Of a DNA stretch of 64,000 nucleotides, positions 196-57,467 are shown piece after piece. Location: positions 247,088-311,087 of the forward strand of contig QKYT01000016.1 of the NCBI GenBank assembly GCA_003550305.1, given 5' to 3'. The notes beneath the pieces were generated by a model. That model saw only the letters and a list, made by a program, of their open reading frames with translations, was not told where the DNA came from and did not search any database. How positions within the stretch are numbered: the first letter of the stretch is position 1; every line of letters starts with the position of its first letter. The position numbers and the translations under genes were made by a program. Source of the DNA: Glomus cerebriforme (taxonomy: Eukaryota; Glomeromycota; Glomeromycetes; Glomerales; Glomeraceae).

Positions 196-693
196 TAGTG
201 TTTCAAAAAAAATCCAATCTGATCTGAATCTGCAAATTTGATCCAAAATGGATTCAGATCAGTTTGCAAATTTAAAATTTATGGATCTGATCTGAAGCAA
301 ATAAATCTAATCTGAATCTGATCTGATTGGATCAGATTATAGTACAAAAAAATCTGGATCTGATCTGATCAGATTCAGATTTTCATATATTAAATATGAT
401 AAATAAAAAAAAAGTTTTTTTTTTATTTTTATTTTTTTTAGAGACTTTAGAGATGAAATCTGAACTAGAGGTATGCTCTGAAATCCAATCAATCCAGCAA
501 ATATCTGATTATCTATCTAAAAATTGATCAGATTCAGATTGATCCATTTGTACCACTAGATTGACCGAATGGTTCAACAGATATCCAGTTAATCTGATGA
601 TCTATTTGTATTACCAGATTCATCAAATACAACAGATTTTTTTTTTATAAAAAAAATGGGTGTTTTTTTATTAAAATTTACTAACTTACTATA

Positions 694-2750: not shown

Positions 2751-2930
2751 AAACTGAATAAACAATTAGATTCAGATCAGTTCAATTTTGGATCTGAATT
2801 GGTTTCAGTTCAGTTCAGTTTTAGATTAATTAGATCCAGATCAGTTCAATTCAAATCTGGATCAGTTTCAGATCAGTTCAGATCAGATCTAGTTAGATTT
2901 AGATCTGTTTAGATCTGTTTCAAATCAGAT

Positions 2931-6759: not shown

Positions 6760-9182
6760 ATTAAAGTTTTCAGGCCATTTTTCTGAAAAATGCAAGTTAT
6801 GTCATAAAAAATGGTCATGCACATATGTAAATATGTTACAATCTTATCTTGCTAACGAGTGTGCTGACTGTCCTGAAGATATTCAAAACTACTGGCTTGG
6901 ATATCTCACTGCAAAGGACTCCTTAGAAGATAAAATGGCTTCTATCACCTCACAAGAATCAAGTTAATCAATAATTTCTAATAAGAGAAGAAGAAGTTCT
7001 AATGGTATGATTAATTATATTAATTATTAATTGTATGATTGTATCTATATTTTAACTTTTTAAGTTAATTATTTTTTTCAATTATTTTATTAAGTTCAAT
7101 CTGAGATTGAAGATTATTATGAGAATCATTGTGGAATACCATTTGCTGTAATCAATAGTCCATTTTTCGTGAATTGTTATATCAATTACATTCAAATTAT
7201 TATTCTCTTTCGCAAAAGGTACTTTTAGAGTTTCTTCTTAATTAAGAAACTTCACAAGTTAATTAAGCTATTAATAAAGAATTAGAGCATTCCAAAAACT
7301 TAACACTTGGTAATTATTTTAACTTTTCATTATATAAATCCACTAGCATTATAATAATAAATTTATTATTATTTATTAGCTTTAAATGGTTAGACTAGTG
7401 CAAGTACTCTTTTCATATATAATTTTATCGTATTAACTCCTTCCAATTAGCAATATCTTTATTGTCTTCAGGATTTTTCTTCATCTCATTATATTGGAGA
7501 ATTCCTCACGTTTGAAATAAAAAAGATTATAGAAAAGATTGGGGCAAAAAAATTTAGTGCAGTTGTCACTGACAATGCATTAAATGTTCGATTAGCTTAA
7601 GAAATTATTTCTAAGGAGTATCCCTTGATATTAAATTTAAGATGTATCGCTCATTTTATAAATCTAATCACGAAGTCAATCTTGGGTAATATTTTATTAA
7701 TTTTTCTTTTAATTAGTTAATTCTTTATCTCTTAGCGTCACAATGAAAGAATTCATTATATTAAATAATATATTAATTTTAATAGATCATGAAACAGCTT
7801 TTAAAATTTTAGTTGCTTGTAATAGTATTACCAATTATTTTAAAGCATCACATATTTGCAACAATTTATTAACTGAATCTGCAAAGATTCTAAAAATTGA
7901 ANGTNNTGGATTGAAAACTTTTATTAAAACAAGATGGACATCCATGTATGAGGCAACTCATTCAATTGTTAGAATGAGATGGGCTTTTGATGAAGTAATA
8001 CTTATTATATTTTTAATTTATTTAAGATATATATTTAACTAAGTATTAACTTTATTATTTAGGTAATAACTAATCATTCTGAGNAAATTACNAATTCTAN
8101 TGTTAAAAAAATTCTTAAAAGAACTGATTTTTATGATAAAGTTAATACTTTAGCTAAACTACTCTAACCTATCAAAAATGCAATATTAATACTTGAAGGA
8201 AACTAAACTAATTTGGCCGATGCATTTATCCAATTCATTTGGCTTATGAAATTAAAAATTTCAATTCAAGTAATTTAGTATCATTTTAGAAATATGCAAT
8301 ACAGGCGTTTAACAAAAAATGGGAGGAATTCAATGTTACTTTATATTTGTTAGCTTACTTTTTACATCCAAGATTTCAAGGTATATAAAATATATATATA
8401 TATATATTTTTTATTTATGTAATAACAAATAACAGCTAATAATGATAATTATTTTCATAGCACAAGGGTTATGAAGTGAAAAATATTCTTTAATTGCTTC
8501 AGCCACTGGTAATATTTGGAAAAAGATGAGAAATAACCAAAAATCATGCAAGAAGCTTCTCTCTCAAATGCGTAAATATAAATTTAGACTAGAACTTTAT
8601 AATGAAATAATTAGAGATTCAGATGAAACTCCTATATTATGGTGACTTGCTATTAATAATATTAGCAATTATTTGCAAGAACTTGCTCTTTATGTTTTAT
8701 CCATTGTACCTCATAGCACTAGTTGTGAGAAAGTATTCTCAATTTTCAGATGGTTCTATGACAAGAAAAGACTTAGCTTACAAACATCAAAAGTTGAATC
8801 TATGACTAAGATTCAATCATATTATGTTTCAAAAGCAAATAATGAATTAAAATATGCAAGTTCAAAATATTCTAAAGATGAATTAAAAGTTATGATTGAT
8901 GAATCTTTGGATAACCTTAAGAGGGATTTTGAGGATAGCGAACCTAAAAGAATATTAGTAAAGCCTGATGAAATTCCAAATCACACAGTGTCAGTATTAA
9001 TATTAGAGGAGATATTTAATGTAGATGAAGTTCCATTTATCAGAGATCCAGAAGATAGTGATGATAAAGAAGACAATAATGATATTGATAATAATGATGA
9101 TAATAATAATGATGATGTTCCTAAAGAAGAACCAGTAGAGGATTATGATGTCTCAAAACTTGCATCAAGATTTCTTGATTAA
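6760..9182 (+). pseudogene. hAT-family transposase pseudogene
   Basis: Multi-exon relic with many stops. The order matches hAT transposases: a BED-type zinc finger (6762 onward, HFSEKCKLCHKKWSCTY), then the RNase-H-like core with GAKKFSAVVTDNALNV (7540-7590; D of TDN is a candidate catalytic Asp) and LNLRCIAHFINLITK (7635-7675), a central segment with TRWTSMYEATHSIVRMRW (7930-7983), and the C-terminal dimerisation region ELALYVLSIVPHSTSCEKVF...RRFY-like (8670-8800). An acidic tail rich in D and N follows (9040-9180), ending at a TAA. Introns are likely at about 7683-7735, 7995-8060 and 8380-8460. Ambiguous bases occur at 7902-7906 and 8084-8100. It was the source enzyme of element Y but is not functional here. 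Confidence 0.8.
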
Positions 9183-9478
9183 TTAATGTACCATAAATTT
9201 TTAAATTGTCTATTATTCCTAAATTAGTATAATATACTAAATGTCATGACTGGAATGATAATCAAAATTTTCAATCCATTTTCAATCCATTTTCAATCTG
9301 TTTTCAAAATATTCAAATTTTTATTAGTAATTAATATAAAAATTATTGATTTTTGTTCAATCTAAACTCAATCCAATTTCAATCCAATAATTTGTCACAT
9401 ACTCACATCTGTTATTATTAGATTTTATTATACAATCATTACAAAATTATTACTTATTAGTTAATTACTCATTAGTTG

Positions 9479-11011
9479 TAGTGCTTCGAACAGATCAGAT
9501 CAGATTTGATTTAAATCTGATCTGATCTGAATCTGGTTTGAAACAATCTGAACTGATCTGAATCTGACTAGATCTGTTCTGAACCGATCTGAAACTGATT
9601 TAGATTTGAATCTAATTAATCTGAAACTGAACTGAACTGAAACCAATTCAGATCTGAAACTGAACTGATCTGAACATAAAGGGAAGTTAATTACTTTCCC
9701 TAATAATTAATAAAGTAAAAAAAAATAAACTTACGTTCGTCCAAGATCCCAGTCGTTCAGCTTCGTCTGTTTGTCCAATTTCCTAAAAAAAGAGAAGGGA
9801 AACGTTAATTACGTTTCCTGAAAGTAAAAAAAAATGAAAGAAATGAATGAACTAATCTCTTAGTTCGTTCGTTCAAGTTCTGTTCATTCAGCTTCATCCG
9901 TTCATCCAGTTTCCTAAAAAAAAAGAGAAAAGGAAAGTTAATTACTTTCTCTAATAATTAATAAAGTAAAAAAAATGAACTTATGTTCATCCAAGATTCC
10001 AGTCATTCAGCTTCATCCATTCATCTAGTTTCCTAAAAAAGAGAAGAGAAACGTTAATTACATTCCCTAAAAGTAAAAAAATAAAAGAAACAAATGAACT
10101 AATCTCTTAGTTCGTTCATTCAAGTTCTGTTCGTTCAGTTTTATCCGTTCGTCTGGTTTCCTAAAAAAAAATTAATAAAGTAAAAAAAATGAACTTACGT
10201 TTGTCCAAGATCCTAGTCATTCAGCTTTGTCTGTTCGTCCAGTTTCCTAAAAAAAAGAGAAGGGAAACGTTAATTACATTCCCTGAAAGTAAAAAAATGA
10301 AAGAAACAAATGAACTAACCTCTTAGTTCATTCGTTCAAATTCTGTTCGTTCAGCTTCGTCCATTCATCCAGTTTCTTAAGACGTTAATTAGGTTTCCTG
10401 AAAGTAAAAAAAATGAAAGAAATGAACGAACTAAGCACTTTGTTCATTTGTTCAAATTCCGTTCATTTGGCTTCGTCCGTTCATCCAGTTTCCTAAAAAT
10501 AAGAGAAGGGAGACGTTAATTACGTTCCTTGAAAGTAAAAAAATGAAAAGAAATGAATGAACTAACCACTTAGTTCATTCGTTCAAGTTCTGTTCGTTCA
10601 GCTTCATCCGTTTGTCTAGTTTTCTAAAAAAAAAAAAAGAAAAGGGAACGTTAATTACTTTCCCTAAAAAAAATAAAGTAAAAAAAGAATGAACTCACTT
10701 TTAGTTCATTCAGGAACTGTTCGTTCAGTCGTCCAGGTTCTGTCTCTAAAGTCTCTAAAAAAAAAAGATAAAAATAAAAAAAAAAAAAAATTTTTTTTTT
10801 TATTTATCATATTTAATATATGAAGATCCGAATCTGATCAGATCAGATCTGGATTTTTTTGTACCATGATTTAATCTGATCAGATCAGATTCAGATCAGA
10901 TTTATTTGCTTTCGGATCAGATCTATAGATCTTAAATTGCAAAACTAATCTGAATCCGTTTCAAATCAAATCTGCGGATTCAGATCGAATCAGATTTTTT
11001 TAGGAGCACTA
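9479..11011. mobile_element. Element R: non-autonomous hAT element with perfect 8-bp target duplication
   Basis: Ends TAGTGCTTCGAACAGATCAG (left) and TAGTGCTCCTAAAAAAATCT (right, read in reverse), flanked by identical 8-mers ATTAGTTG at 9471-9478 and 11012-11019. The 190 bp inside the left end and 270 bp inside the right end are rich in GATCTGA words. The middle (9690-10735) is a tandem array of intron-like units in minus orientation. The right 270 bp is the inverted match of the left 270 bp of element L. There is no coding gene. It sits inside element Y, so it is younger than Y. Confidence 0.85.
9690..10735 (-). repeat. Tandem array 2 (copy in R): intron-like units
   Basis: About nine units of roughly 90-125 bp. 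On the minus strand each runs: exon-like AAACTGGATGAACGGAC-type core, donor-like GTTAGTTC or GTAAGTTC, short T-rich stretch with CATTTTTTTTACTTTCAG, then GGAAACGTAATTAACGTTTC (branch-like ATTAACG), a pyrimidine tract TTCTCTTTTTTTTAG, and the next core. Inverted homolog of 2080-2750. Lengths vary, which suggests repeated unequal exchange. Confidence 0.75.
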
Positions 11012-11170
11012 ATTAGTTGATTACTCATTTGATTAATTGCATTAGTAGTTTGAATATGATTCATTTATTCATAATTGTGTAAGTGCAAATTCGATATGAG
11101 AATTATAAGATAAAATATCTAAAATATTTCAAAATTTTTTTTCAATTTTTTCAGAATAATAAATAATATA

Positions 11171-18976: not shown

Positions 18977-21469
18977 ATGTGCCCTGTTTTAACTTGTTTA
19001 CTACTTGATTTGAATCCAGAGTTTAGAATATGTTTTAGTAATTCAAGCGTAGAACCTGAATCGGCTATTCTTCACGATGCTTCTGACTTATTATCATCCG
19101 TTACGTTAAACAATCCATCTCATGGGTTATTTAATGATAAATATCCGCTTCATGTTATTCCACATCCCGAAAAACAGAACACATTTATGAATAGAATATC
19201 TTATGATACACAAAGTAACTCGTATTACGAAAACGGAATCGTTGATAAAAAATATCTTGAATTTTGGGATAAAGGAGTTTTGTATTATGAAAATTTAAAA
19301 TACGCAACTGAATATTCTTATGATAGGTAAAAACATACCATTATTTTAAATATTCATTTATGATTTATTAATAAATTATTATTACTTATTATTATTATTT
19401 TTATTATTATTTTTATTATTATTATTTTTTTTTTTATTGATTAATTATGATTAATTAGGACAATTTCAAGAGATACAATGGCTTTATTCCCGGATTATGA
19501 TGATTTTTCTTCATCAATTATTTATAAATTCGATTATTCTCCATATGAAAATTTGGGAATTTCTTCATTGGCTTTAAAATTAAACTGTTTTAACGAGAAT
19601 ACAAATTATAATTGGGTAATCTCTATTTCAACTAATTCAGATATAACTACATCAAATTCTATCTATCCTTCAAATTTAGATATCGATTTAAAGAATCGTA
19701 AATGGAAAAAGATCAAAGAAACTAACAATTATACAGATAAAAATAATTATTATGAAAGATTAAATCTTGAAAATTTGACACATTATGTGAGAAATAAAAA
19801 ATTTTTTTATATAAAAGCAGAAATTTTTAGAGATAGATTTTATTATGGAAAAAATATACAACTTTTCCCTCAAACAAAACGTTGTTCCCTTGAAAATAAT
19901 ATTAAAGAAAATTTTACGTTAGACGTTATTGTAGAATTATCACCATTGACATCAAATAATTTAACGAAATCATTAAAAATAAATATTGAATCCATGGATA
20001 AACTTCTTAAATTAAAAAATCAGATTGAAAAAGGAGAATCTTCAACTTCGAATGAAAATGCGTTAATCTTTGGAGGATTATTTAATGATAAATATAGATG
20101 TAATGTTTTACCAAGTGAAGAAAAAAAAGATATTTATACTCATAGAATTTCATATAATGCTATTACAAATGCTTATTATGAGAATGGTATTAATCATATC
20201 AAATATTTGAAAAGATGGGATCGTGGAACTTTTAAATATAGTAATATTTATTATTATCCAGAATTTTTATCGGATATAAAAATGTAAGTGAAATAAATCT
20301 TTATAATCTCTTTTTTTTTTTCTAATATGAACAACGATAATGAATTATTTATTTTTGATATATCTAGTTATAGAACTCTTAGTCATGATAAAAAGAATAT
20401 TCCAGCTTATATTACATGGAAATTTGATTATCGACCTGGAAATTTGTATCTTTCCTCTTTAAAACTTAAATTAAAATTTTTTAATTTATCCGATAGAGAA
20501 AAGATCAAATGGTCAATTCAATTATTACCTACTCGAAAGAATCCCGATCCTAAATTCAAATCAATCATGTTTCCTTTAAATGAAGAAAATTTTAATAATT
20601 TAGATTATACCATAGATCTAACTGAAATGGTTAAAGGTGAATATGGATTTATCTTAAAAGCGTACTTGAATGGTGTTGAAACTCATCAATTATTTAGACA
20701 GTATGTAAAAGAATATCCAAGATCATTATTAGGTTATGATGATTATAATATTGATGATGATGATGATGAGAATTTTAGTATGGATATTAAGATGGAATTG
20801 AGACCAAATATGTTATGTGACTCAATTCAAGAAGAAAAGAAAATTATTAAGAATAATAAAGCAATTAATGAGAATTTATTATTTAATGATAAAAATACAA
20901 GTGATTTCATCATTAAATTAGAACTTCCAAGAGAAGATTATTGTGAAGATATTACAGAGAAAATTTTTTATTTGCATACGAAGGTCCTCTCTTCCGGATC
21001 AGATTATTTTCAGGCATTATTGAATTCACATATGTTAGAATCACAAAATAGATGCCTTAAACTTACTGATGTTTCTTATTTCATTCTTGAAAAATTACTT
21101 TTATTTATTTATACTAATAATCTTGAAAATATTAATGAACTTGAAGATTGGATCGATTTATTATACGCCGCTTCAAGATTTTTATTACCAAAATTAATTC
21201 AAGTTTGCGAATTATCTATTAGAAAATTAGTTAATTTTGATAATGTGGAGAATATTGAAATGGCCGCTTATGAGTGTTGTTCTATGCAATTGGTTAAATA
21301 TTGTGAAATGTTTGAAATTAAAAATAATGAAAAAAATGAGAATAAAATATTTAAGAAAGAAATCATTGAAATACCAAAATATGTAAATAAACGTGATAGT
21401 GTAGTTAAGAAATTTAAAAGTTTGATCAAAAATTTAACGCAAAGAAAGAGGGAAGAAATGATCTTGTAA
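18977..21469 (+). CDS. Gene A: two-module MATH-like/BTB protein, 756 aa
   Basis: Three exons: 18977-19326, 19459-20283, 20374-21469. Both introns are phase 2, with donors AG/GTAAAA and AT/GTAAGTG and acceptors ATTAG and TATAG; joining them gives an uninterrupted frame. Order: unique N-terminus; first GLFNDKY module (about residues 50-117, ending RISYDT...YYENGI..KYLEFWDKG); a beta-rich MATH-like segment (from about 130, IIYKFDYSP); a second GLFNDKY module (322-391); a second MATH-like segment (from about 405, YITWKFDYRPG); and a BTB/POZ domain (about 563-680, NDKNTSDFIIKLEL...LLYAASRFLLPKLIQVCE). A basic tail follows. MATH-BTB proteins usually act as substrate adaptors for cullin-3 ubiquitin ligases; that role is inferred. 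The last TAA overlaps an AATAAA. Gene C is a close paralog; gene B lies tail-to-tail 113 bp away. Confidence 0.85.
19379..19438. repeat. (ATT)n microsatellite in intron 1 of gene A
   Basis: Irregular ATT/TTTATT tandem tract of about 60 bp inside the first intron of gene A, ending in a T run before the acceptor region. Confidence 0.8.
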
Positions 21470-21473
21470 TAAA
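21468..21473 (+). terminator. Candidate poly(A) signal of gene A
   Basis: AATAAA begins within the TAA stop of gene A. The gap to the convergent gene B is only 113 bp, so both genes must end transcription in a short shared A+T-rich spacer. Confidence 0.4.
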
Positions 21474-21582
21474 ATTTATTAATTTTTAAATAATTTTAGA
21501 TATATAATTTGTTTTTTTTTTAAGAGAATGTATAATTTTTTATTTTAATAAAAATATATTTGAGTACAATATATATAAATAT

Positions 21583-23769
21583 TTAAATCTTTAATAAATA
21601 TAAAGCATCGCTATTTTCGGTTTCTAACATTTGACAATATCTAAATAATTGTTCTGCACCACAATCATTAGCAATTCCCTCAATTTCTTCTACATTATCA
21701 TTATTAACGTATTTTGAAATGGATTTTTCGCATTCTTGAATTAAAATTGGAATTATAAATCTCGAAGCTCCATAAAGTAAATCTGTCCATTGTTCCAAAT
21801 CATTTAAATCATCTTTAACTTGTCCTGTATACATAAAATTTAAAATATTTTCAAATGAATGAACGGAAATTTCTGAAAGTGTTAGTGTCTTATCTGTTGC
21901 TTCTCTCATTTGTGAACTAAATAATCCCTTAAAATATTCCGAATAATATTCTAAAATAAATTTATGAACATGATAAGCAACTTGATTTTCTTTCGAATCA
22001 TTTAATATAATAGTAAAATCACTTGTGTTTTGATCATTTAAAACAATTTCTTTTTCATTAAAAATATTTTTAGGTAATTCTTTACAAATAATATTAGGTT
22101 CAAGCTCAACTCTTACATCCATTCCAAAACTTTCATCATCATCGATTAAAGGTTCTGCTTTATCCATCTCTTGTCTAAATAATTGAAGTCTATCCCAAGA
22201 TAAATTTCCTAATAATTGAACTCTTAAAATAAATCCATATTCACCTTTAACAAATGATGAAAGGTCTAATATTGAATCTGATTTATTATAAGACCAATAA
22301 AGTGATAAACCAGAAGTAAAATCACATGAAATTGGTTTCCAACTAAGCAACATTGCATTTTGTCTTGTTGCTAAAGGAATTATTGATATTTTAATATTTT
22401 CAATAATCGTATCATCATGCCATGCATATTGAATTAATTTTAATGATAATGATTTAATTATGAAATTTCCGGGTCTATAATCAAACTTCCATTTTATATA
22501 TCCTTTTTTCCTATTTTCATATTCATCACGATCAACTTGTTCTTTAGATAAATATACTCTAAAATGAAAAAAAAAATTTAAAGTTAATTAAAAGATTAAA
22601 ATAATTAAAATAATTATTTTAAAATTATTATATTGTACTTACTTTTTCCAATTATGTTCAGCATTATAAGCGATATTGTAAAAATCCAAGGTTCCACGAT
22701 CCCACCTTTTTAAATATTTTTTGGTCGTGATCCCATTTTCATAATAAGCATCAGTTCTCGTATTATATGAAATTCTATGATTAAACAAATTTTCCTTTTC
22801 TTTATTTGGTAATACATTAAATTTATATTTATCATTGAATAATCCAAAACTAATGTTTTTTTTAATATCGTTATCGTTAACTTTAAATCTCAAATTATCA
22901 TTTAATAAATTATTAGAATCTTTTTGACTTTGAATTAACTTAACTCTAATATCCATACTAAATATTCTTTCATTATCCTTTAATTTTCTACTTTTATACA
23001 TCCTTTGATTAAATAAATGAGCCATTCCTTTATACAATTCAGCTTTTAACATAAATCCTGATTTTCCTTTAACGAAATCACTTAAATCTAATATTTCTTT
23101 ACATAATAGATGCGAAGAACCTTTTGGAATTTTTCCCCAATTTAACTCTAAAGTATTGGTATTATTATTATTTTTTGTTAAAGGTGCGATAAACCATTGA
23201 ACTGAATTCCATTTTGCATCATCTAATTCTAATGATAAAGAAAAAATTGTAAATTCTTGTTGTTGTTGATGAGAATCACTATAATCAAACTTCCAAACAA
23301 TATGACCTAATTTATTTGAATCATATCTAGTTAAAAATATTCTAATTTTTTTTAAAAAAAAAAAAAAATTAATCATCACAATTAACGTAAAAAATAATAA
23401 TAATAATAAATAATAAAGTATTTATAATTACCTATCAGCTCCATATTCAGGTACATAAGCAATATTATCATATTCATAAGCACCTTTATCCCAAAATTCG
23501 AGATATTTATTTTTTATAATTCCATTTTCATAATAAGAATCATCTTCAGTATTATAAGAAATTCTATTTTCAAAAATCGGAAATTTTTTTTCAACTTCAT
23601 TAGTTTTTATTAAATGAAGAAAATATTTGTCATTAAATAAACCATGTGTAATTGAATTATTGACGTTCACTTCTGAGGAAAGATATTTTATAATACAAAT
23701 AGCTGTTTCTTCATCTTGTGATGAAGGACAAATTATCTTCTTAAATTGATTTAATGAAGTATAATCCAT
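21583..23769 (-). CDS. Gene B: two-module MATH-like/BTB protein, 670 aa
   Basis: Exons on the minus strand: 23769-23432, 23341-22643, 22558-21583. Both introns are phase 2 (donors AG/GTAATT and AA/GTAAGT, acceptors ATTAG and TTTTAG), giving one open frame. Layout as in gene A: first GLFNDKY module (from about residue 43), MATH-like segment (HIVWKFDYSD), second module (FGLFNDKYKFNVLP...YYENGI..KKYLKRWDRG), second MATH-like segment (YIKWKFDYRPGN), then BTB (about 520-635). The BTB core YHVHKFILEYYSEYFKGLFS matches the canonical vHk.vL...S.yF pattern more clearly than A or C. It diverges from A and C along its whole length, so it is the older paralog. An adaptor role in ubiquitin ligation is inferred from the BTB family. 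Confidence 0.85.
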
Positions 23770-24639
23770 GAAAAAATTTCGCGAATTATTAGGAGAAAAA
23801 AAAATAAATGATAAATAAATGATACAAATTTCCGGATTAGTTAATATATCAAAAAGGCAATCAATTTTGTGTATAAATAATTGCTGATCATATAGCTTTT
23901 ATAGCTTTTTGTAAACTCGTCCTACGCGTAACAACAAATACAAATACAGTATTCTTTTTACGTCAGTTGAGAATACTTGATTTCTCCAAATTTTCATTTT
24001 GCAAAGTGTTAGTTTAAATATTCCCACTTACGGTTATTTACGAATCCTGCTTCCTCTTTCTCCTGAGGTTTCTTCTTATTTTACCCTCTAAACTCTAAAG
24101 TAACGATTAGTATTATCTATATGTACAGTACCTTTCCAAGTACTTTGCGCAGCAAAAGTGAACTAGTAATTAGACTGGTGCAATAATTAAAATTAATTTG
24201 TTATTACGGTTAATAGTTTTATTCAAGTTAGTCAAAGAAAAAGAAAAGAAAAAACCGCATAAATGCATAAATTAATGCGCGTGTTTTATTAAGTTAAACA
24301 AAAGAAAATTCAAAATATGCTTTATTTGAATCATTCATTTGCCAATAATTGAATTATAATAATAAAAAGATTCGCCCTTTTCAAAAAGATTATGAGGATT
24401 TAATACGTTACTGCACTAGATTATGCGTGACGAGTTTAAGGCGCAGTAAAAGTCAAATTCGGTTTGCATTCAATGATTATTTAAAAGTAAGTTGATACAT
24501 TATACTGTACATTATCATTTCATTTATTGGTTATCTTCCGGTACGAAATAAAAGGCAAACATAGAAAGTCTTATTCATGTCTATTGTTATTTGTTTTATA
24601 GCAAAAATATGTAAATGTGCTTTTAAATACAGTATGTTG
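23770..24639. other. Intergenic region upstream of gene B, no gene seen
   Basis: Promoter side of gene B. A+T-rich, no open frame of note and no recognised repeat. CACGT-poor, with scattered TGCGC words (for example 24148, 24277). Confidence 0.45.
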
Positions 24640-25169
24640 TGTTCCAACCGGGTTTTCAGACAATTCGGGTCAACAACGAATGTAACCACCAGTTGGTGTG
24701 AGTAATTCTGGCCAGAATTATGATCCCGCCCAGAATCATGAAGATTTCCAAATAAGGAAATTAGGTATTACGACGTAATTCGGGGCTGGCTCGAATTACG
24801 AAAATTTTCTAATAAAGAAGAGACCTTTTTTCATAATTGCGTGATGATTAATAGAGTTAATAGAGTTAGCATTTACTCCTCGAATTATGTAAATTTATTA
24901 TAATTTTTATAATTTCTCTCATGATAATAATTTCAATAATTTCTCATGATTTCTCAATAATTATTCATAATTTATCATAATTCCTCGTGATTTCTCAATA
25001 ATCATCATATTTCCACAATAATTTCTAAATTCTATAATTATTCATAATAATAATGTTTAATTTCTCATAATTTAATAGTTCATCAATAATTTCTCTAGTA
25101 TTTGGCCTGAATTACGGTAATTACACAGGAAATTTTCATAATTCGGATGTGCAACCGGTTCTAACCTCT
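24640..25169. mobile_element. MULE-like MITE, 530 bp, with 9-bp target duplication
   Basis: Identical 9-mers AGTATGTTG flank the segment at 24631-24639 and 25170-25178. The ends are imperfect inverted repeats: TGTTCCAACCGGGTT...AATTCGG on the left, and AGAGGTTAGAACCGGTT...CGAATT read from the right. The interior contains TCTGGCCAGAATTA and GGCCTGAATTACGG words also seen in decayed form at 29930-30100. Nine-bp duplications point to a Mutator-type element. Non-coding. Confidence 0.65.
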
Positions 25170-27171
25170 AGTATGTTGATATTATGTACATTGTTACATG
25201 ACAAAAAAAAAAAAAAGATTTTTTTCCACAAATATCTCATTCCATTTATCTCGATTTCAAAAAAATTTACGCGTAATAACTACGCGTTACATAATAATTG
25301 ATATATTTGATACGTAAAATGATGAAAATTGCAAATTATAATGGAGGATAATTTAATAAATTTACTTTAAAATTCTAAAGTTTGAAATAAAGGAGTAATA
25401 TATATTATATATTACAGTATTATAAATAATAAATATTTTGATCATTATACTGTTTAAAATTACTTGCTAAAAATCATATGAAATGATATATTTATCATGT
25501 AAGATCAATAAATACAGTAACAAGATTGACTTTTCACATTTCTATCAAAGATAGATGATGATCAAGTAAACACAAATATAGAGAAATAATATATATATAT
25601 ATATTTGTAGTTCTCTCATAGAAATACAGTAAATAGATAAAAGATCGAGCACCAATTAAAACTATTAAAAACCAAAATTATTTTCATAGTGACGATGTGA
25701 CAATTTGATGCTTGGAATTTTCGAACTACATAATAAATTATTAATACAGTACTGCACTGCCCTGTATCATTTACATGATTTACACGAGGTAATACCAGTG
25801 TAATACCTACCTAAACGAAATGGGCGCAGATAAATGAAATCACGGCAAATTCCGGGACAATATTGTGGATCATGAGATTTTTTTTTTTTAAAAAAAAAGT
25901 TAAAAATAAACATAAAATTATATTTACAAAAGATCAATCATCAGATTGATAATAAATTAATTAAGGTGATTTCTTAAATTATCAAGATATTATTTTCAAT
26001 ATTATGAAGGTCATGACTATATACAGTATATAAAGATTTAAATAATGAATTAATAGAATTTATTTTACAATCACACATTCAATTTTGTTAACTCTTTAAA
26101 ATATAAATATGAGATTGAAAATTTTCCGGGAAAAGAACAATGATTCGTTAGAATCTCACTTTATGTGATTAATAATATAAAAACCAATCATATAATCCAG
26201 AATTATTGATTATTAACTTTAATCGGAAAAAAGAAATCGGAATCAAAAAGAGAGAAACTTTTTGTTTAATTGTTTGTCTGATCAACAAATTTATTAGCTT
26301 TACCGAATTTTAATGAAAATCATAAACAAATTTTAAATTCACGTTGTTATTTATAATTAAAAAACAATTGCACCATTCATATTTAACGAAGAAAAAATCT
26401 TGGCAAAAATAAATTGTTATATTTTTATTTTTCTCTATTGTTTTAAAATAAATAAAAAACTATTATTCTTGAAAATAATCATCTTTTTTTTAAATGAGAC
26501 ATAAACTTGAAGTATAATGTAGTAATTGCACGCGTTTTATTTTACAAATAATATTCAAAAAACTCTTTGTAGAAAATCGTAAATAAAACATTGGTAAATA
26601 AATAAAAAAAGTTCACATTCATGATTAAAAATTAGTGGATATCAAATTTATTATTACATATTAGCATATCAATTATTAATATTAATTTTTAGGAACATTA
26701 TTAAATTCATAAGGAAAATAATTATATTTCCCAAATCTCAAATCATTGGAATGTGAGAATAAATTAAATGCATGAATTTAAATAATGAACTTTTGATACC
26801 GAATAAGGTATTTAAAAGTTCAGGAGTTAAATGACGTAAAATCGGCAAAATTTAATATATTATATATATATTATACTAAATGATCATCTGAAATACGGAG
26901 TAAAAAGAAATCATTTGATATATGTTTTTGATTTAACCTGCATAATGTACATCTAAATTTTTTTTTAACCTATTTTTAGGTTAGAAACAATTGCTGTAAT
27001 AAAATATCCTGATTCTAAACTGGTACTTATTATGGCTAATACTATAAATATTTTATTACACAGCCCAAATTTAGTAGAAGGCTTTACTTTAGGATTTTTG
27101 CCGCGCCCTAAGAAAATACGAATTTGGTACGATTTGATTTCGTCATAATGAATAATATGTTGTACTTAATT

Positions 27172-27204
<33 letters not shown>

Positions 27205-27500
27205 AGCAAATCGTGTAAAAAAAAAATTGTAAGATTTTTATAAATCGATAAAAGAATTCTTTAGATTTCCATGAAAGAACTTTTTTAAAAAAAATATTGT
27301 TATTTAAAATCATATTTTGTTACCCAATCGATGGTAAATATTTAAATGTTAAGACCTTTTTATGATGTATATGATCGCGCGGATGTAAGTAACATGCAGT
27401 GCGACAAATGCAACACATTGACGTACGTACCCCTCCGTCTTTTCCTTTATCAGCTACAAATGTTTCCAAAAATAAAATACATTTTATTTTAAAAATCATT
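25170..27500. other. Intergenic region with no gene seen
   Basis: A+T-rich; contains CAGTA words, an (AT) run near 25592-25602, and a 30-bp T homopolymer at 27174-27203. It probably holds the promoter of the metalloprotease gene in its last few hundred bases, where the sequence is richer in C and G (27370-27450). Confidence 0.5.
27174..27203. repeat. Poly(T) run of 30 bp
   Basis: Uninterrupted T homopolymer about 460 bp upstream of the metalloprotease start. Such tracts disfavour nucleosomes and often mark promoters in fungi; that role here is inference. Confidence 0.85.
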
Positions 27501-27667
27501 CAATGATATTATCTCGATTGTTTTCAAATAATTTCTTTATTTGGTTAAAAAAATTTTTTCATCAAAAAAAATTTTTCGAATTAAAATATATAAATGTCCT
27601 TATTTTCTTGGCTATTTTTTTTTTTTTTTTAAAAAAAAAACCAAAATATTTCCCTTTTTTTTCTAAG

Positions 27668-29095
27668 ATGGCTTCTATTAGATTAAAACATAATATATTC
27701 ATATTTTTCATTTTTTTGACATTTTTCAATCTACTAGTTTTTTCTTATTGTATAGATTATTTTGATGCGACAGATCATAATGTAAAAAGACAAGTTAATT
27801 GTCCTCTCGTAACAGATGATTCATCAAAATATTCTAAAAGAAAATTTGCTTATGAAAATAATGAACCAAAATTACAAATAGTAGATTTTCATTGTGATGC
27901 ATCCAAAGAAATTTGTTCTAATGTTGAAAATACTTTTCTTAAGGCTGGAAATATCATTTCAGAAATTATTCTATTAAAAAACCCTTTACTAGTATCTGTT
28001 AATTATACTAATATATGCTTATCTGAACCTAAACTATGTAATATACAAGGAAAAATTGCCATAATAGGTAAAGTTTAAACTATAAATAAATTATTTTATA
28101 AATAATATTATTTAAATAATTTTTCTTTTTTGTAGGTGCTGCTCATTCGGCAAGAAATATGTTGTTTTTGGATGATGATGGATTAACTCGATTTTATCCT
28201 CAATCATTAGTGAAACAATATGAACTTGATAATCATCCTGAATTTGCACCTTTCGATATTATTGCAACATTTAATTCTTTAGTTAATTGGAAATTTCCAT
28301 CAGATTATGATACTCCAATTCAACCAAAACAAATTGATATGCTTTATATCGTTTTACATGAATTAATGCATGGTTTAGGTTTCGGTTCAAGTTGGGAAAA
28401 TTGGTTTTTAACTGATAATCCAAATCAAATTTTTATCACTTCTCAACCTGATTTTATTGCTTCTAATACTGAAACTATTTTTAATGGTTTTAAAGAAACT
28501 GCTTTTGATAGACAATTAATTTTTAATAATGATTATACTCATTTAACTGATATTACTATAAAATTAAATCAATTTGCTAAACCTAATACAAAATTTAAAA
28601 ATAATACTGACTTGATTGTAAATTTTATTAATTCTAAACAAGTCGTATTATCAGAATATATGAATAAGATTTCTACTACTCCTAATACTATTTCTTCTTA
28701 CCCAAAATCTTGTAATGCTCCGGATAGAGCTATTTTAGAAACTACTATTGAACCTTTTCGAAATGGTGCAAGTATTTCTCATTTTGATCAATCTTATATT
28801 ACTACTCCTGATTTTTTAATGACTACTCTTCAAGTTCCTGGTAAAACGTTATACGATTTAGTAAGACAATCTGGTGGTATACATCCTATTGGTCCAAAAT
28901 TACAATCTATTCTGGAATGTATAGGGTATGAAAATTTTTTTTTTTTCATGTATTACGAAAAAAGAATGTTTCAAATTATGCATTTATTAATCATTAACTT
29001 TATTTATTTTCATTCATCCTTTTTTTTTTTTAAAAAAAAACAGATATGAAACAAAGAGAAATCCTACACCATATCGTCCAAAATTATATCCCTAA
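27668..29095 (+). CDS. Secreted zinc metalloprotease, metzincin-like, 413 aa
   Basis: Exons 27668-28067, 28136-28925 and 29044-29095. The donors are G/GTAAAG and GG/GTATGA; the acceptors are TTTGTAG and AACAG. The joined frame ends PYRPKLYP. The start at 27668 is chosen because it opens directly on a basic residue and hydrophobic signal peptide (MASIRLKHNIFIFFIFLTFF, cleavage probably near SYC); an in-frame ATG at 27503 would add a low-complexity leader encoded by T and A runs. Residues 208-216 read HELMHGLGF, an HExxHxxG zinc site with catalytic Glu. At metzincin position 11, usually the third His or Asp, there is Ser. A later ISHFD (about 347-351) could supply the third ligand, and PDFLM (about 358-362) fits a Met-turn. 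This gives an extracellular protease, substrate unknown. An AATAAA follows at 29143. Confidence 0.8.
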
Positions 29096-29142
29096 TTATT
29101 CCGCTGAGCGGAGATTTTGTTACACTGTACTCACTATTTAAC

Positions 29143-29148
29143 AATAAA
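29143..29148 (+). terminator. Candidate poly(A) signal of the metalloprotease gene
   Basis: AATAAA 48 bp after the stop codon, followed by a T-rich stretch, in the expected position for a fungal 3 prime end. Confidence 0.55.
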
Positions 29149-31710
29149 ATCTTTTAAGAATTATTGTTCTTTTTATATATATATACATGATTAGTTTATA
29201 TAAAAATATTTATGAACTTTATTTAAATTAGATTATAATTTGTAACAATGTAAAATTTATCTTTTTATCAATAGAACTCAATTAATTTCATTTAATTATT
29301 TATTTTAAATAAAAAAAAAATCATACGTGAAAAAAAAATAATAATATGTCCAAAATTAGAAAGTTAGCATTAAAATTTACAGTATTAAATCTGTTCGAAA
29401 GTCCGCATTATTTTAAGGATAAACCGAATGGGTCGATCCGTTCACGTAACACGAAACTTTTAAATCATTTCTCTAACCAAAGTTGTACGATGAGAATGTC
29501 AACATCCCAATTTTTGTAAATTGAAATAATTAAAAAAAGTTTGGATTACATGCTTATAGTTATTACCGATTATCTAACAGAATCTTTTTATTTGTCAAAA
29601 TATGATAACATTGCATTGAGGAAAATTTAGGGATGCCAACATAACTCGTCCTATGCAATAACTTCATTAGTATTACGTCACGTCACTTTTTACTTTTTAC
29701 TTTTGTCATCCCGTTCTCAGGATTACATCCTGAATATTATATTACGTCATTATGTATGCACCCTAGTCTACTGGTGGAGAAATCAAAGGGAACCTCACAA
29801 GTTGTACTTTACTTTTATTACAATAAAAAAATAAGAAGCCAAAAGAGTTATTTTTTATTGGAGGATTAAATATTGTGTTAACTCGATTCAAAATTAAAGT
29901 GTGGGCCAGAAAAATATTCGTAATTTTACTAATCATAGTGTCGGCCTGGATTACAGACGTGATCCAGGTTGGTGGCATAACGGAACTGTAATTATCATTA
30001 GTTTTGGCCGGAATTAAAGTTAATTTACTGATTCATTGAACGCTAAAAAATTATGGCAAATTAAGAAATTTTTTCTAATTTCGACCTAAATTATATGTTC
30101 ATAAAAATCACATGCTTAACTTACAAAAAATACTCTGATTTTATTAAGTTTGGATCTGACATTATCTGTTATAGTTAGAAGAACTATATCCCATGTCATA
30201 GTTAATAACTAGACAAGAGTTGATTGAGTCTTACATATGAAACTTTTAACCATAAATTAGATTTATTAGGTTTAAAACCTGAAATCTGTATTGTGATATT
30301 ATAAATACAAATTAAAATTTAATTTGTCAATCAAATATTTTCAATATAAGGTGTAAGTAATTATTTATCTTAAAATTTCTTTTATAAATTTATATACATA
30401 TATGTATATAAAATAAATTCTTAAAATAATAATAATATATTTTTTATTAGATAGTTCTTTAAAAATATACTCTTAAAATATAAAAAAATTTTATATATTT
30501 CTTTTTTTTTAAAAGATAGGCAGATGTGTAATTTTATTTATCAAGAAAAATATTTAAATTCTAAAATACATATTACAATTCTCCATCTAGTATTATAATC
30601 TATTAATCCATCAATCTGTTAATTTTTGAATTTATCTGATTCAAATTCCATTCAGATTATTCAGATGAATTACAAATGAATAACAGATGATCTGATGGAT
30701 AATTCAGATGATCTGTTATTTTATTTATTTTTTTTTTTTGAAAAAATTTAAATGAAAAAAAAATTCTGAAAAAAAAATCAGATTAAACATTTGAAATCAA
30801 TATATTTAGATGACATTTTATATCTGGATACATCCAGATGATAATTGGATGAATCTGTAAATCTATTTTAAATATTTAGATCATTATGAATAAGGATAAT
30901 ATCATAATACCCTAATTGCAATTTGTAGTATTATGAAACATTGCAGATTTTAAAGTCTAAATATCCACAATTCTATAATTTACAATAATCTTCATAATTA
31001 ATCTGCAATGTTGTAATTAATCTGCAATATCATAATTAGTTAAATTAGTTTATAATATTTGTAATACCATAAATTGGCATAATTTATAAATATATTATAC
31101 CTTTATTACCTTATAGACTTATACAGGATGCCAAATAATATATGAATAGGTGGTAGGATTTGAGTTTGCTTATTGAACATAAAAAATTTTTACGCCTAGT
31201 AAGATTTTTTTTGCTTATTTAAAGAGTTAAATTTAAAATAGTCAGTATTTTATATGTATAGCAGGACATATAAATTTGATAACTCAGTAATGTGTTTATT
31301 TGCATAGCAGAAACTTATTTTAGAATATATTATATGACATTAAATATTTTAAAAATATATTCCTTAAAATTAAAGACATGTAAATAAAATTAATATGTAA
31401 ATTTAATACGTGACAGTGTAACAAAATCTAATCTATTTTTATATGTGATAATATAACAAAATTTAATCTATTTTTATATATGATCATGCAATGAAATTAT
31501 ATATGATTACATAAAAAATATATACGCGTTCGCATAATACCAAAATGATATATAGAAGTTGAAAATAGAGGAAATAAGTGTAATTTTTCTTTTTCCAAAT
31601 TTTTGTTTTTACAATACCATTTCTGCATCAATTATTAAAAGTTGTATATATTTTATTTAGTAACTTTTTTACAATTTTTGATACTTTTTTATAGTAAAAT
31701 TTGATATTTT
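29149..31710. other. Intergenic repeats remnants, no gene seen
   Basis: 29600-30100 holds GGCCAGAA and CGGCCTGGATTAC words related to the MITE at 24640. 30590-30870 holds CAGATGATCTG and GATTCAAATTCCATTCAGATT words that recall the ends of elements Z and L. 30900-31080 is rich in AATATTGCAGAT-like words. 31390-31640 resembles 35800-36120. None has a sustained frame. Confidence 0.45.
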
Positions 31711-40630: not shown

Positions 40631-42920
40631 TTACACTTGATTAAGCAATTTGATTGGTTTTATATGTGCTATTTTTTTTTTGCTTTTCTTTTTCATATAA
40701 GTTTTTTGTGTACTTTTAGATTTCTTAACTATGCTAATTGGCTTATTTTCTTTCTCATGTATATCATCCTCACCTTGTTCATTATTTTTAATTTCAAACA
40801 TTTCACAATATTTAATCAATTGCATAGAACAACACTCATGGGCAACTATTTCAATATCCTTCACATTATCAAAATTAACTAATTTTCTAATAGATAATTC
40901 ACAAACTTGAATTAATTTAGATAATAAAAATCTTGAAGCAGCATATAATAAATCAATCCAATCTTCAAGTTCATTAATATTTTCAATATTATTAGTATAA
41001 ATAAATAAAAGTATTTTTTCAAGAATGAAATAAGAAATATCAGTAAGTTTAAGGCATCTATTTTGTGATTCTAACATATGTGAATTCAATAATGCCTGAA
41101 AATAATCTGATCCAGAAGAAAGGACCTTCATATGCATATAAAAAATCCCCTCTGTAATATCTTCACAATAATCTTCTCCTGAAAGTTCTAATTTAATGAT
41201 GAAATCACTTGTATTTTTATCATTAAATGATAAATTCTCATTGATTTTTTCATTATTCTCAATGCATTTCATTTTCTCTTGGATTAAGTCACAAATAATA
41301 TTCGGTTTCAATTCCACTTTGATGTCCATACTAAAATTCTCATTACTGTCAATATCATAATCCGATTCATATTGTTTAAATAAGTGATGATTTTCCGCCA
41401 AGTATGCTTTTAAAATAAACCCATATTCATCCTTAACCATTTCAGTTAGATCTATGGTATAATTTTTTAAATAAAAAATTTCAGGAAACATGATTGGTTT
41501 GAATTCAGGATCGGGATTTTTTCGAGTAGGTAATAATTGAATTGACCATTTGATATTTTCTCTGTCGGATAAATTAAAAAATTTTAATTCAAGCTTTAAA
41601 GAGGAAAGATAAAAATTTCCAAGTCGATAGTCAAATTTCCATGTAATATAAGCTGGATTATTCCTTTTATCATGACTAAGAGTCCTGGAAACGTGTGTTC
41701 TATAAAAAAAAAAAGGAAATTATTAATTATTTATGTACAGTAAGTATAAGTTAAAGAATTTTTTTTTCACTTACCTTCTTTTTTTTAGCGAGTATTCAGG
41801 AAAATAATAAAGATTGTTATATGTAAAAGCTCCTCGATCCCACTTTTTTAAATATTTAATATGAGATATACCATTTTCATAGTAAGCATTTTTAATGTTA
41901 CTATATGATATTCTGTGTGTATAAATATTTTCCTTTTCCTCAATTGGTAAAACATTACACCTATATTTATCATTAAATAATCCTCCATAAATACTTTTAT
42001 TCGATTTTGCAAATGATTTTTCAATTGTTTCATTTAAATTAGGTATTTTACTTCTAGGTTTAACACATAAGTTTAATACTTTTTTTAATAATGTCAATGG
42101 GGAAAATTCTACAATAATATCCAATTCAAAATTTTCTCCAATATTGTTTTCAAGCTTATCATGAAAATGTTTGGTTCGAGAGAAAAGCTGTATATCTCCA
42201 TAACCAATTTCAGCTTGAATATAAAAAATTTTCTTGTTTCTTATAAAATTTTCAAGATTCATTCTTACATAATTATTTTCATCATTCTCAGTCATTTCTT
42301 TAATTTTTTCCCATTTACGGTTTTTTAAATCGGAAGTAGCATCTAAATAATTATTTGTTGAATTAGTCGAAATATAGAATATCCAATTATTATTTGCATT
42401 TTTATCAAAGCAATTTATCTTTAAATCAAATGAAGAAATTTCCAAGTTTTTATAAGTGGAATAATCGAATTTATAAATAATTGACGAAGTATGATTTTGA
42501 TGTTCCGGAAATAAGGCCGTCACATCTTTTAGATTTATTCTAAAATAGGAATTCAAAAAAAATTTTATTATACATTTTTATTTATAATTAATAAAAATTA
42601 ATAAATTTAAATTACCTGTCATAAGAAAATATAGTTTTCTGAATCAAATTTTCATAAAAGAAAACTCCTTTATCCCAAAATTCAATATATTTTTTATCTA
42701 TAATTCCATTTTCGTAGTATGAATCACTTTGTGTATCATATGATACTCTATTCATATAGATATTATGTTTTTCAGGATGTGGAATTACGTGAAGTGGGTA
42801 TTTATCATTAAATAATCCATAATGTTTATCACCTAATGAAACAGACGATAAAAGATCGGAATCATTATTAAATACGGCTGATTCCGGATCTTCGATCGAA
42901 CATTTTGAATTCACTTCCAT
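40631..42920 (-). CDS. Gene C: two-module MATH-like/BTB protein, 712 aa, close paralog of gene A
   Basis: Exons on the minus strand: 42920-42616, 42539-41775, 41699-40631. The introns are phase 2 with donors AG/GTAATT and AG/GTAAGTG and acceptors TTTTAG and TTATAG; the joined frame is open throughout. Order: first GLFNDKY module (from about residue 35), MATH-like segment (IIYKFDYST), second module (from about 287), second MATH-like segment (YITWKFDYRLGN), BTB (about 516-640), and a basic tail ending KKKSKKKIAHIKPIKLLNQV. Exon 3 is nearly the same as in gene A over long stretches (TRKNPDP.FK.IMFP; VLSSGSDYFQALLNSHMLES), so A and C are a recent duplicate pair lying 19 kb apart in opposite orientation. 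C is shorter at the N-terminus and between the second MATH-like segment and BTB. A MITE has replaced its 3 prime flank. Confidence 0.85.
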
Positions 42921-50640: not shown

Positions 50641-51870
50641 TGGTTAGCTCTTAAGGATATTTAGTAATTTCTTGAGAATATTTTGCCATTTTATAAATAG
50701 ATATATTTGGAAAAAAAATATAAATAGTGATAGGAGAATAAGCAAACAAAAATGTAAAAATATTTGAACAATTAAAAAAAAATATGTGATGAAAAAAACA
50801 AAAAAAAACAATGATAAAAAAATGTATGAAATATATACAAGCAATGAAAAAATATATGGAAAATATATACAATGTGGTAAAATAAAAGAATAGTGAAAAG
50901 AAAAATATAGCGAAAAAAAATAAGCAAAAAAAAATAAACGAAAAAAAAATATAGTGATAGAAACAATAAATATAAAATTTCTATTTCCATTTACAATATC
51001 AATATAAATAATTTATTTAAACAGGAAAAAACTAGTTTTTTTTATTTCAAATTTAGCAGTTTCCATGATGTCATTTTTATTTTGATTATTTATAAAAATA
51101 GTTCAATCATTTTCAAACAGGAATATAATAGTCATTTTTATTTATTTATACTAACTATTTATAAAATAATTCTTTTTTTAAAAAAAAATTGGTTAGAGAA
51201 TAAAAAAATTTTTTAAACAAAAAAAAGTTAGAATTTTTTATAATAATATTTGTTTTTGTAGATTTTTTTTATTTTATTAATAATTATTGACATAGTTAAT
51301 ATTCTTTTCTTTTTTTTTATAGAAAATGATTTGGTAAATATTAATGTACTTTTGTTGGTTTGTTTGCAATTTATAATATATAATACTAACATTTCTTCTC
51401 TTTAACTTTTATTCAGTTGTTTATTAAAATCAAACCAACTGTTAGTAAGTTATTGTAATAAAAGATTTATATTTTTTATTTTCATGCTAACATTAATTTT
51501 TTTTCTTTTAGAAGTAGCTTTGGCTCTAATTTATAGAAACGTAAAGAGTATGAACAGAAATTATTAAGATTTATTATTTAAGAGATTCTTTTAACTTTAT
51601 TTTCTTTTTTTTTTTAGTTTGAATTTAAATAATCACGTTGGAGATAGACACCTCTTACGGGTCTTATTAAGAAAAATTACTGCAATATTATTCTATAAGT
51701 AAAGCTCTGCACTTTTCAATTGAACTAAGCCATGTAAATTAAAAAAAAATTACTATTATAGTAAATAAAGCATCGATCATATGACTTACCAATCTGACTT
51801 CCTGATCTGATTTACCGATCAATCATTTTTTTTAAAAAATATATTTTTTTATAATTTTCTTTTTCTTTAG
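50641..51870. other. A-rich low-complexity region, no gene
   Basis: 50700-50990 is a run of AAAAAAATAT and GATGAAAAAAACAAAAAA words that opens long hydrophobic frames on the opposite strand; these are compositional artefacts. 51000-51860 is A+T-rich, with T tracts ending in TAG (51320, 51510, 51618) that resemble isolated intron ends. Confidence 0.55.
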
Positions 51871-52330
51871 ACGTAATAGAATTTGAATTTTGACCTGGAA
51901 CTCTGAAATGGTAAGTTGCGAGGAAAGACTTAGTATTTTTTTATTATGGGAACATTACTAACGTTCCTTTTTATTTTTTTACTTTAGAGATAGCTTTTGA
52001 ATTTGAAATTCAGTCTGAAACACTGGAATGGTAAGTTAAGAGAAGAGACTTGGTATTTTTTTATTATGGGAACATTACTAATATTTTTTTTTTATTTTTT
52101 CACTTTAGGGACAGCTCCTGTACTTGAAATTCAGTCTAAAACTCTGGAATGGTAAGTTGAGAGAGGAAATTTGTTATTTTTTTTTATTATAGAAATGTTA
52201 CTAATATTCCTTTTTATTTTTTTTACTTTAGGAACAGCTTCTGAACTTGAAATTCAATCTGGAACTCTAGAATAGTAAATTGAAAGAGGGACTTCAGTAA
52301 TTTTTTTTATTATAGAAATGTTACTAATAT
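51871..52330 (+). repeat. Tandem array 3: regular 43-nt exon-like / 77-80-nt intron-like units
   Basis: Intron-like segments 51911-51987, 52031-52108 and 52152-52231 each begin GTAAGTT, carry TTACTAAC or TTACTAAT about 30 nt before the end, then a T tract and CTTTAG. The exon-like segments between them (51988-52030, 52109-52151, 52232-52274) are all exactly 43 nt and share CTGAACTTGAAATTCAGTCT and ACTCTGGAATG. A fourth donor (GTAAATT, 52275) follows. The unit period is about 120 bp. It lies left of the zinc-finger relic and may be the left subterminal repeat of a large element. Confidence 0.8.
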
Positions 52331-52519
52331 TCCTTTTTTATCTTTTTTTATGGCTTTTGGACTTGGATTTCAGCCTGAAACTTCATCATATGGGCTAATT
52401 TTGCTCATCTCTGATTCTGTCACATGTGATAACTATATGCAAATATATTGCATATTATAGTGATTTTACTGTATAATCAATTACTGATCAAATTTTTTCA
52501 CATCTAAACTATAACAGTA

Positions 52520-55975: not shown

Positions 55976-56339
55976 GTGTAATTCTTTTACAAAATGTGAC
56001 TAAACTTTGTTTTAAGAGCAACTAACCATAAAGGTTCGAATAAGACTACTTTTTATAATATTTCTTGATTTTGCTAATCTTGTAATAAAGCTTTACTGAA
56101 CTGATCTAAAACTGATCTAAAACTCACGATTTCAATAGCGAAAAGTTTATGACCTGTGCGGTTATTGGATTTTAATTTTTTATCATACATTTTTGATACC
56201 TTTTTGGTGGGAAGTTTTTTATTACATATTTTTGGTTGTACAACTCATAAACTTGAATGGTATAACTCATAAACATCACATAAGCTTACTTAGTGAGACG
56301 AGCATGATCAGCCCATATGTTAATGTAAGTTAAGTAGAA

Positions 56340-56670
56340 CTTTGCTATTCTTTTTTATTATAAAAATGTTACTAATGTTCCCTTTGTTTTGTAAGATCTA
56401 TTTGAACACTTCAGAATGGACTTTAGAATGAACTTTAGAATGGACTTTGGAAAGTAATTAAAGGATGAGAATTATTTTACTATTGTAGGATCATTAGTAG
56501 ATGTTATTGACATTCCTTTTTCTTTTTTTTTTATAGGAACATTCTTGGATGCTATAGAATGACCTCGCAAGGTAATTTAAGGAAAGAGGATTTTTTTTAT
56601 TAAAGGTATGTTATTAAAATATTACTAACTTTTCTTTTGTTTATTTTTCAATAGGAAACCTTTAAGCCAG
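56340..56670 (+). repeat. Tandem array 4: intron-like units
   Basis: Three unequal units. Donor-like GTAATTAAAGG (56452) leads through ATTGACATTCC to TTTTTTTTATAG (56537). An exon-like segment ends AAG/GTAATTTAAGG (about 56570), and the following intron-like segment has ATATTACTAACTTTTC and ends CAATAG (56654). The preceding unit has GTTACTAATGTTCCC. Same orientation as array 3, on the other side of the two convergent relics. 56681-57215 after it has no recognised feature. Confidence 0.6.
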
Positions 56671-57223: not shown

Positions 57224-57467
57224 TAAGGTTGCTTGTCAAAACCTAAGGGTTTAGGCAAGATGGTGTTTTGCTGAAAAGCAAAATTCTGCCAAAACTATAT
57301 TAAAGTTATATTAAAAAACTGGCGAAACTCTGGAGAAAAGCAAAATTGCTGAAACCTATTATAATTGCTGAAACTGCCAAAACTCTGCTGAAACTATAAT
57401 AAATCTATAGTAAAATTTTGACAAAACTAATCGTAGGATTTTGAAGAAATTTAGGCAGGCAACCTTA
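57224..57467. mobile_element. hAT-type MITE, copy 3 (244 bp) with perfect 8-bp target duplication
   Basis: Ends TAAGGTTGCTTGTCAAAACC and TAAGGTTGCCTGCCTAAATT (read in reverse), flanked by GGTAAGAG at 57216-57223 and 57468-57475. The interior shares GCAAAATT, GAAACTATAATAAA and AAACTCTG words with 38288-38529 and 39115-39289. This copy defines the family borders. Confidence 0.85.

Follow-up and report, generated by a model that had tools for sequence, protein, structure and literature searches.

Several described systems come close to the arrays that we report here. Introners are non-autonomous and carry splice signals; many of them have terminal inverted repeats or target site duplications, several families can occur in one genome, and each insertion brings in one intron (passages of PMC9860276). 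The terms "Tandem", "Rhizophagus" and "hAT" do not occur in the main text of that paper, and "intron" and "splic" do not occur in the main text of the R. irregularis transposon curation (PMC11075540). The stwintrons of the Hypoxylaceae, as partial accounts present them, are nested introns. Introns or stalled splicing can also decide the silencing of mobile elements, as indicated by parts of two further papers. In human cells, in work on HUSH, introns protect foreign transcripts and this protection needs no splicing (PMC8770142), and in Cryptococcus stalled spliceosomes can trigger siRNA production (PMC6643885, citing Dumesic 2013). These are human and basidiomycete systems, unlike the fungus studied here.

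In the arbuscular mycorrhizal fungus Glomus (Rhizophagus) cerebriforme, we observed elements that are, as read from their sequence, non-autonomous hAT-type DNA transposons with a tandem array of U2-type introns and microexons (~20-57 nt) inside. They share with introners the presence of multiple copies with complete or partial splice signals. However, an introner insertion is a single intron, whereas here several introns and microexons stand together, the first acceptor is unpaired, and exons would be left in the RNA. Like stwintrons (in the same partial accounts) they are fungal, multiplied and sequence-similar intron units, but they form tandem intron-exon rows inside transposons rather than nested introns. 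With non-autonomous hAT elements they share short inverted ends, 8-bp target duplications and the lack of a transposase inside the elements seen; they differ in their interior, which consists of intron-exon units, at a size of 1.4-2.6 kb. A search of titles and the beginnings of abstracts, with most subscription journals outside its scope, returned no earlier account of tandem intron-exon arrays inside transposons. By this limited literature search, these arrays represent intron-carrying DNA transposons of an apparently undescribed form.

The array that led to this work lies in a window of 64,000 nt (the whole stretch of DNA analysed; contig QKYT01000016.1 of assembly GCA_003550305.1, positions 247,088 to 311,087 of the forward strand). 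Its cores and introns were read directly, and introns 1 to 3 were also recovered by a pattern match, at the contig positions given:

51741-51870, plus strand: array leader, a CATATGACTTACC / CTGATCTGATTTACCGATC-rich stretch followed by a T/A tract up to CTTTAG
51871-51910, plus strand: exon-like core 1, 40 nt
51911-51987, plus strand: intron unit 1, 77 nt, GTAAGTT...TTACTAAC...CTTTAG (C258:298998-299074)
51988-52030, plus strand: exon-like core 2, 43 nt
52031-52108, plus strand: intron unit 2, 78 nt (C258:299118-299195)
52109-52151, plus strand: exon-like core 3, 43 nt
52152-52231, plus strand: intron unit 3, 80 nt (C258:299239-299318)
52232-52274, plus strand: exon-like core 4, 43 nt
52275-52383, plus strand: decayed intron 4 and the remnant of a further core

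Introns 1 to 3 begin with GTAAGTT, carry the branch motif TTACTAAC or TTACTAAT (TTACTAAY) and a T tract, and end in CTTTAG. With a GT donor, a branch motif, a pyrimidine tract and an AG acceptor in this order, the array units have the predicted make-up of U2 spliceosomal introns. The initial annotation had described tandem units of an exon-like core plus complete intron signals, and this was borne out at 51871-52274, where the introns measure 77, 78 and 80 nt and lie on one strand only. It had also given the cores as 43 nt, which is correct for three of them; the first one (51871-51910) has 40 nt. The further statement that core length is strictly kept does not hold in general, as the cores of relatives measure 22, 32-35 and 41-43 nt (relatives in family A') or 35 and 28 nt (family D).

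Intron 4, which starts at 52275, has a GTAAATT donor and retains the branch motif, while its acceptor AG is gone. The right edge of the array, at about 52383, is the start of a different repeat, and the other genomic matches begin at query position 53-59 or further in. This copy seems to be cut off on its right side. The CTTTAG of the leader is the first acceptor, and there is no donor ahead of it (by eye). The leader (51741-51870) matches a locus on another contig (L041, G000:C751), and it resembles the leaders of L039, L042 and L044 (by eye). Locus L041 (G000:C751:5500-9700) is a relative of the leader and first core; its adjoining ORFs are MULE-type transposase-like and lie on the opposite strand (by eye). 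We looked for inverted ends and a target duplication round 51871-52330, and found no convincing inverted ends.

We searched the genome (112.5 Mb, 1117 contigs) with a donor-gap-branch-gap-acceptor pattern. This gave 233 matches (100 forward and 133 reverse), as against 1 for the pattern read backwards, so that the signals are beyond chance. A second match was present within 1 kb of 70 out of 100 matches that were listed, and among the remaining 30 there may be chance hits and ordinary introns. The 460 bases of the array, used as a genome query, gave at least 75 matches (40 of 115 candidates scored). When the matches from this query, the intron pattern and the family D search were merged, at least 100 loci were obtained, some of them with a single match. 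We also evaluated a random sample of 122,370 bases (positions 20001-30000 of randomly drawn contigs, 13 of 20 draws giving a stretch), in which an array was present in 1 of the 13 stretches (L011). About ten array types, divided by eye, fill non-autonomous DNA transposons.

The suspected link to transposons was supported for related arrays, which sit inside such elements. Three element types (D, A' and B) have inverted ends and 8-bp target duplications, which we take to be hAT traits. The ends are TAAGGTTGCTTGCC in family D, AGGAAATAATAATTTTA in family A' and TAGTGCTTCGAA in element B. Element B lies in the window, which also contains two further arrays:

660-1830, plus strand: array of period ~122 whose intron-like units are weaker, GTAAT...TTATTAAC... 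(the tandem repeat finder gave 1467-1830, and 660-900 was read by eye)
2130-2760, plus strand: array of period ~131, its units similar to element B units (tandem repeat finder for 2422-2754, the rest by eye)
9471-9478, no strand: left copy of the 8-bp target site duplication ATTAGTTG of element B
9479-11011, minus strand: element B, hAT-like and non-autonomous, with ends TAGTGCTTCGAA and, inverted, TAGTGCTCC
11012-11019, no strand: right copy of the 8-bp target site duplication ATTAGTTG of element B

The interior of element B holds an array of exon-intron units at about 9680-10750, read on the minus strand. Two weaker unit-like intron stretches lie on the plus strand at 56322-56389 and 56564-56659 (E 1e-4 and 8e-6, respectively).

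Some other features of the window were also seen. An inverted-repeat element at 926-1460 (CACTGGT.AAAAACTGATCTATCTTACAG ends) was apparently inserted into the 660-1830 array (by eye). The unit-like stretches in 56322-56659 are near ACTTTAGAATGG tandem repeats. A 244-bp element at 57224-57467 shares the ends TAAGGTTGCTTG with family D, and its target duplication, GGTAAGAG, matches in 8/8 positions. ORF clusters at 18977-23769 and 40631-42556 are BTB- and TLD-type-like (by eye), and BTB was confirmed at 20327-21469.

Family D was found at no fewer than 34 loci with at least 79% identity, and at least 6 more with 73-75% (40 of 280 candidates scored). Twelve D loci contained 5-12 units each and 101 in total, some of these loci being cut by the ends of the sequence stretch. 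Most D units have 109-111 nt with a 35-nt core; the first core had 28 nt in three of the four parsed loci, and the last core also deviates. Locus L042 was chosen by its two ends, which both match D, outside the D array matches, and its interior is made of introns and microexons of mostly other sequence. L044, which was chosen by its left end, opens like L042 and then enters a masked stretch. Target duplications were complete (8/8) at L030 (AGTATACT) and L042 (GTATTAAT) and matched in 7/8 positions at L025, and at L031 all 4 of the 4 available flank bases matched. The flanks of another D copy, L024, matched in 0/8 positions.

The family A' set consisted of L004-L008, L022 and L023, where L004 and L008 repeat L022 and L023. 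The A' elements with both ends (L022, L023 and L006) span about 2.0-2.6 kb, their target duplications are 8/8 (with the boundaries AGG.../...CC placed by eye), and the arms of the terminal inverted repeats are 77-83% complementary. A relaxed parser recovered 48 introns (8+9+10+11+10) from one strand of five A' arrays and a single one from the other strand.

To relate the unit families, we used two profiles. The profile made from D units only matched the array at 51871 (E 1e-5), A', D2, G, H and one L042 unit. The profile seeded with A' and the introns of the array matched D, G and H, and weakly F and B; as it contains the array's own introns, its match to the array is no evidence. Neither profile matched anything in the same sequences reversed. 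Families E, C and most of L042 were not linked by either of them. (This second profile was seeded with 52 units that had been chosen for intact signals, and its column table was not used for rates.) By these matches, a single broad superfamily of units exists beside other ones, and the elements that house them differ in their ends. Since several families share homologous units, their recurrence is not fully independent.

We also used as a protein query the peptide from the joined exon consensus of a related A' array. Predicted proteins resembling the joined A' exons were present in Rhizophagus clarus (E 2.4e-9), Glomus cerebriforme (E 3.3e-7) and Funneliformis geosporum (E 3.3e-3). In these three, some microexons are joined across predicted introns and others are read through, and each protein is at least partly read-through intron (by eye). 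Related units are therefore probably present in other Glomeraceae, given the predicted proteins of R. clarus and F. geosporum.

We further estimated how the splice signals decay in family D. Among 962 changes from consensus in the D units, 704 (73%) were G to A or C to T. A/T positions of the signals had changed in 3 of 999 cells and other A/T positions in 201 of 6029, and 41 of the 62 other A/T columns never changed. Conservation of the donor, branch site and T tract within copies, which the initial annotation had read as selection, is no sign of it on its own, since changes at A/T positions are rare throughout the units. When the splice G's were compared with other G's in the same context (the p-values are rough, as the units are related by descent), donor G1 was mutated in 8/100 as against 36/361 other G's after T (p 0.70, omitting column 44, which has a mixed consensus; with this column, 67/456, p 0.10), donor G5 in 9/100 as against 24/201 other G's after A (p 0.56), and the acceptor G in 3/100 as against the same 24/201 (p 0.01). 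Slower change at the splice bases than in the rest of the unit was thus seen for the acceptor G, and not for the donor G's, which behave like context-matched ones. At the level of copies, the equal rates that the initial annotation had named as grounds for refuting its reading were therefore largely observed. Without context matching, the three splice G's look protected (20/300 vs 347/1691, p 5e-10, again roughly), and the simple conservation test is misleading unless the context is matched. In both A' and D most of the decay consists of G to A and C to T changes, also outside CpG, and it is deamination- or RIP-like.

As the donor bases in D are no better kept than context-matched bases, the copies are not selected to splice. 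Individual D copies decay nearly neutrally, so that any selection would be on source elements that are active. It remains to be explained why the intron architecture is complete across families whose exons and intron interiors differ strongly. The case for function lies in the recurrence of this whole architecture across families that differ in their exons and in their element ends.

An inverted repeat round the branch site was evaluated in one example intron per family, with A' outside the pattern used. In intron 1 of the array it had -6.0 kcal/mol, and a fraction of 0.013 of 300 shuffles was as low. The repeat was also strong in D (0/300 shuffles as low), D2 (0.003), E (0.010) and B (0.04). 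Little or no such repeat was present in H (0.10), F (0.16), G (0.38), J and C (both 1.0), or in introns 2 (0.40) and 3 (0.67) of the array. The paired columns of the A' units vary independently, i.e. without covariation. A conserved RNA structure at the branch site was rejected as a general feature, given the weak or absent repeat in H, F, G, J and C and the lack of A' covariation. The family E introns of L036 (G000:C180:3000-6500) often begin GTAAGTTTC....GAAACTTA(C/T), where the donor could lie in a hairpin formed by an inverted repeat (by eye). For comparison with host introns, four small stretches were read by eye, three of them with the weaker donors GTAAAG, GTATGT and GTAAAA and the fourth ambiguous, which are too few to count.

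Taken together, the interpretation in the initial annotation is partly supported, and the question becomes why these arrays are there. We give about an even chance to the explanation that splicing-competent source elements spread better because their transcripts look like host RNA. A sense transcript across an intact element, from its own or a host promoter, would be spliced at every unit, and splicing would shorten the array by 58% (the array at 51871) to 68% (a unit of family D). Such transcripts would pass for the intron-rich RNA that the host itself makes and would be spared the silencing or harm to which unspliced or intronless foreign RNA is exposed, and source elements that keep splice competence would spread better. 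An inserted copy would then decay, with G to A and C to T as its main changes, and arrays would grow or shrink among the inner units while the first and last units remain distinct. The genomic excess of the intron pattern over its reverse (233 vs 1), the strand bias in A' (48 vs 1), the differing unit numbers between copies and the occurrence of arrays in elements whose ends are of three or more kinds all speak for this explanation. However, exons remain in the product, so the array cannot render an insertion silent, a DNA transposon without genes has no obvious need of a transcript, and the unmatched flanks of L024 also count against it. A bolder form of the idea is that multi-intron cassettes in Glomeraceae transposons are molecular camouflage against RNA-based silencing of intronless or badly spliced foreign transcripts, the cassette having moved among element types that differ in their ends, with several renewals of its sequence; this we regard as speculative and distinctly unlikely.

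Passive copying of an old exon-intron repeat comes as a close second, possible though on balance unlikely. Here an ancient element would have carried an exon-intron piece of a gene, which was amplified in tandem and then passively copied, and the signals would look preserved because they are mostly A/T. The predominance of G to A and C to T among the D changes fits this well, as do the rarely varying A/T columns, the donor G's that decay like context-matched G's, and the homologous units across families. It accounts less easily for the complete intron architecture, which survives strong divergence of exons and intron interiors (by eye), for the recurrence of arrays in elements with different ends (including L042, which was chosen by its ends), and for the somewhat slower acceptor G (p 0.01, rough as above). 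An improbable reading is that the array is a gene-trap or non-coding RNA cassette, where the orphan left acceptor would capture an upstream host donor, the microexons would be joined and the transcript would end in the terminal segment, so that a sense insertion would rewire host transcripts. Across 13 loci (the 12 D loci and L042), an acceptor 232-301 nt in, with no donor-like site before it, was seen in 8/8 readable leaders, and the terminal segments of 10/10 readable right ends had no donor-like site and 2-4 AATAAA, as such a cassette would have; but AATAAA is common in AT-rich DNA and is shared by the copies through descent.

Two explanations involve a protein. We consider it very improbable that the arrays are a transposase gene's 5' leader with its many introns, which deletion derivatives have retained. 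hAT families regularly give rise to derivatives by internal deletion, and the D arrays examined all run in one direction from one end, as this would predict. One ORF at 8673-9182, 297 bp from element B, had no Pfam match at E 0.001 as a whole, and part of it matched hATC (hAT C-terminal dimerisation) at E 7e-4, under the curated cut-off; this weak match was missed by the genome hATC listing, and the ORF lies outside element B (9479-11011) on the opposite strand. Scoring 150 of 265 candidates gave at least 148 hATC matches in the genome. One of these, at a D2 locus (C280), was at most 2 kb from one of 100 array loci, as against 0.53 expected, and 2 were within 4 kb, as against 1.05 expected. 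No autonomous element with matching ends was found, nor any long D-type element among the scored matches to either end (40 of 95 and 40 of 101 candidates scored). With the listed hATC matches near arrays about as frequent as expected, the transposase-leader reading was unsupported. That the arrays encode a repetitive protein through a series of repeated short exons, if only in source elements, is scarcely credible. The initial annotation had thought selection on a peptide unlikely, and the D copies indeed lack coding constraint, while the D consensus exon is open in three frames: joined to itself it has no stop in any frame, as do 2542 of 20000 shuffles (12.7%). The three predicted proteins resembling joined A' exons would also favour coding, but these are in part read-through intron (by eye). 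With cores of 35, 28, 43 and 33 nt, the reading frame does not stay the same between units. The actual D copies have no open frame across their joined exons, as those of 12/12 loci, of which L025 and L029 each include one long segment with an unparsed intron, have a stop in each frame; the joined 35-nt exons hold 98 stops as against 107 (s.d. 9) predicted by mutation alone. A search with the D peptide found no homologue. For the family D copies, we therefore set the coding repeat aside as unsupported, given the stops in all 12 loci and the missing peptide homologue.

These observations have some practical bearing. With A/T nearly fixed and G/C decaying, "conserved" splice signals are easily over-read in AT-rich repeats. 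The arrays also seem to surface as predicted proteins, which is a warning for gene annotation in arbuscular mycorrhizal fungi. For the host, the arrays could supply genes with new introns and microexons. Several families built of intron rows offer a natural test of why mobile elements keep splice signals, be it to be tolerated in genes, to evade RNA surveillance, or to no purpose at all, and they could help to test how cells handle foreign transcripts that are rich in introns.
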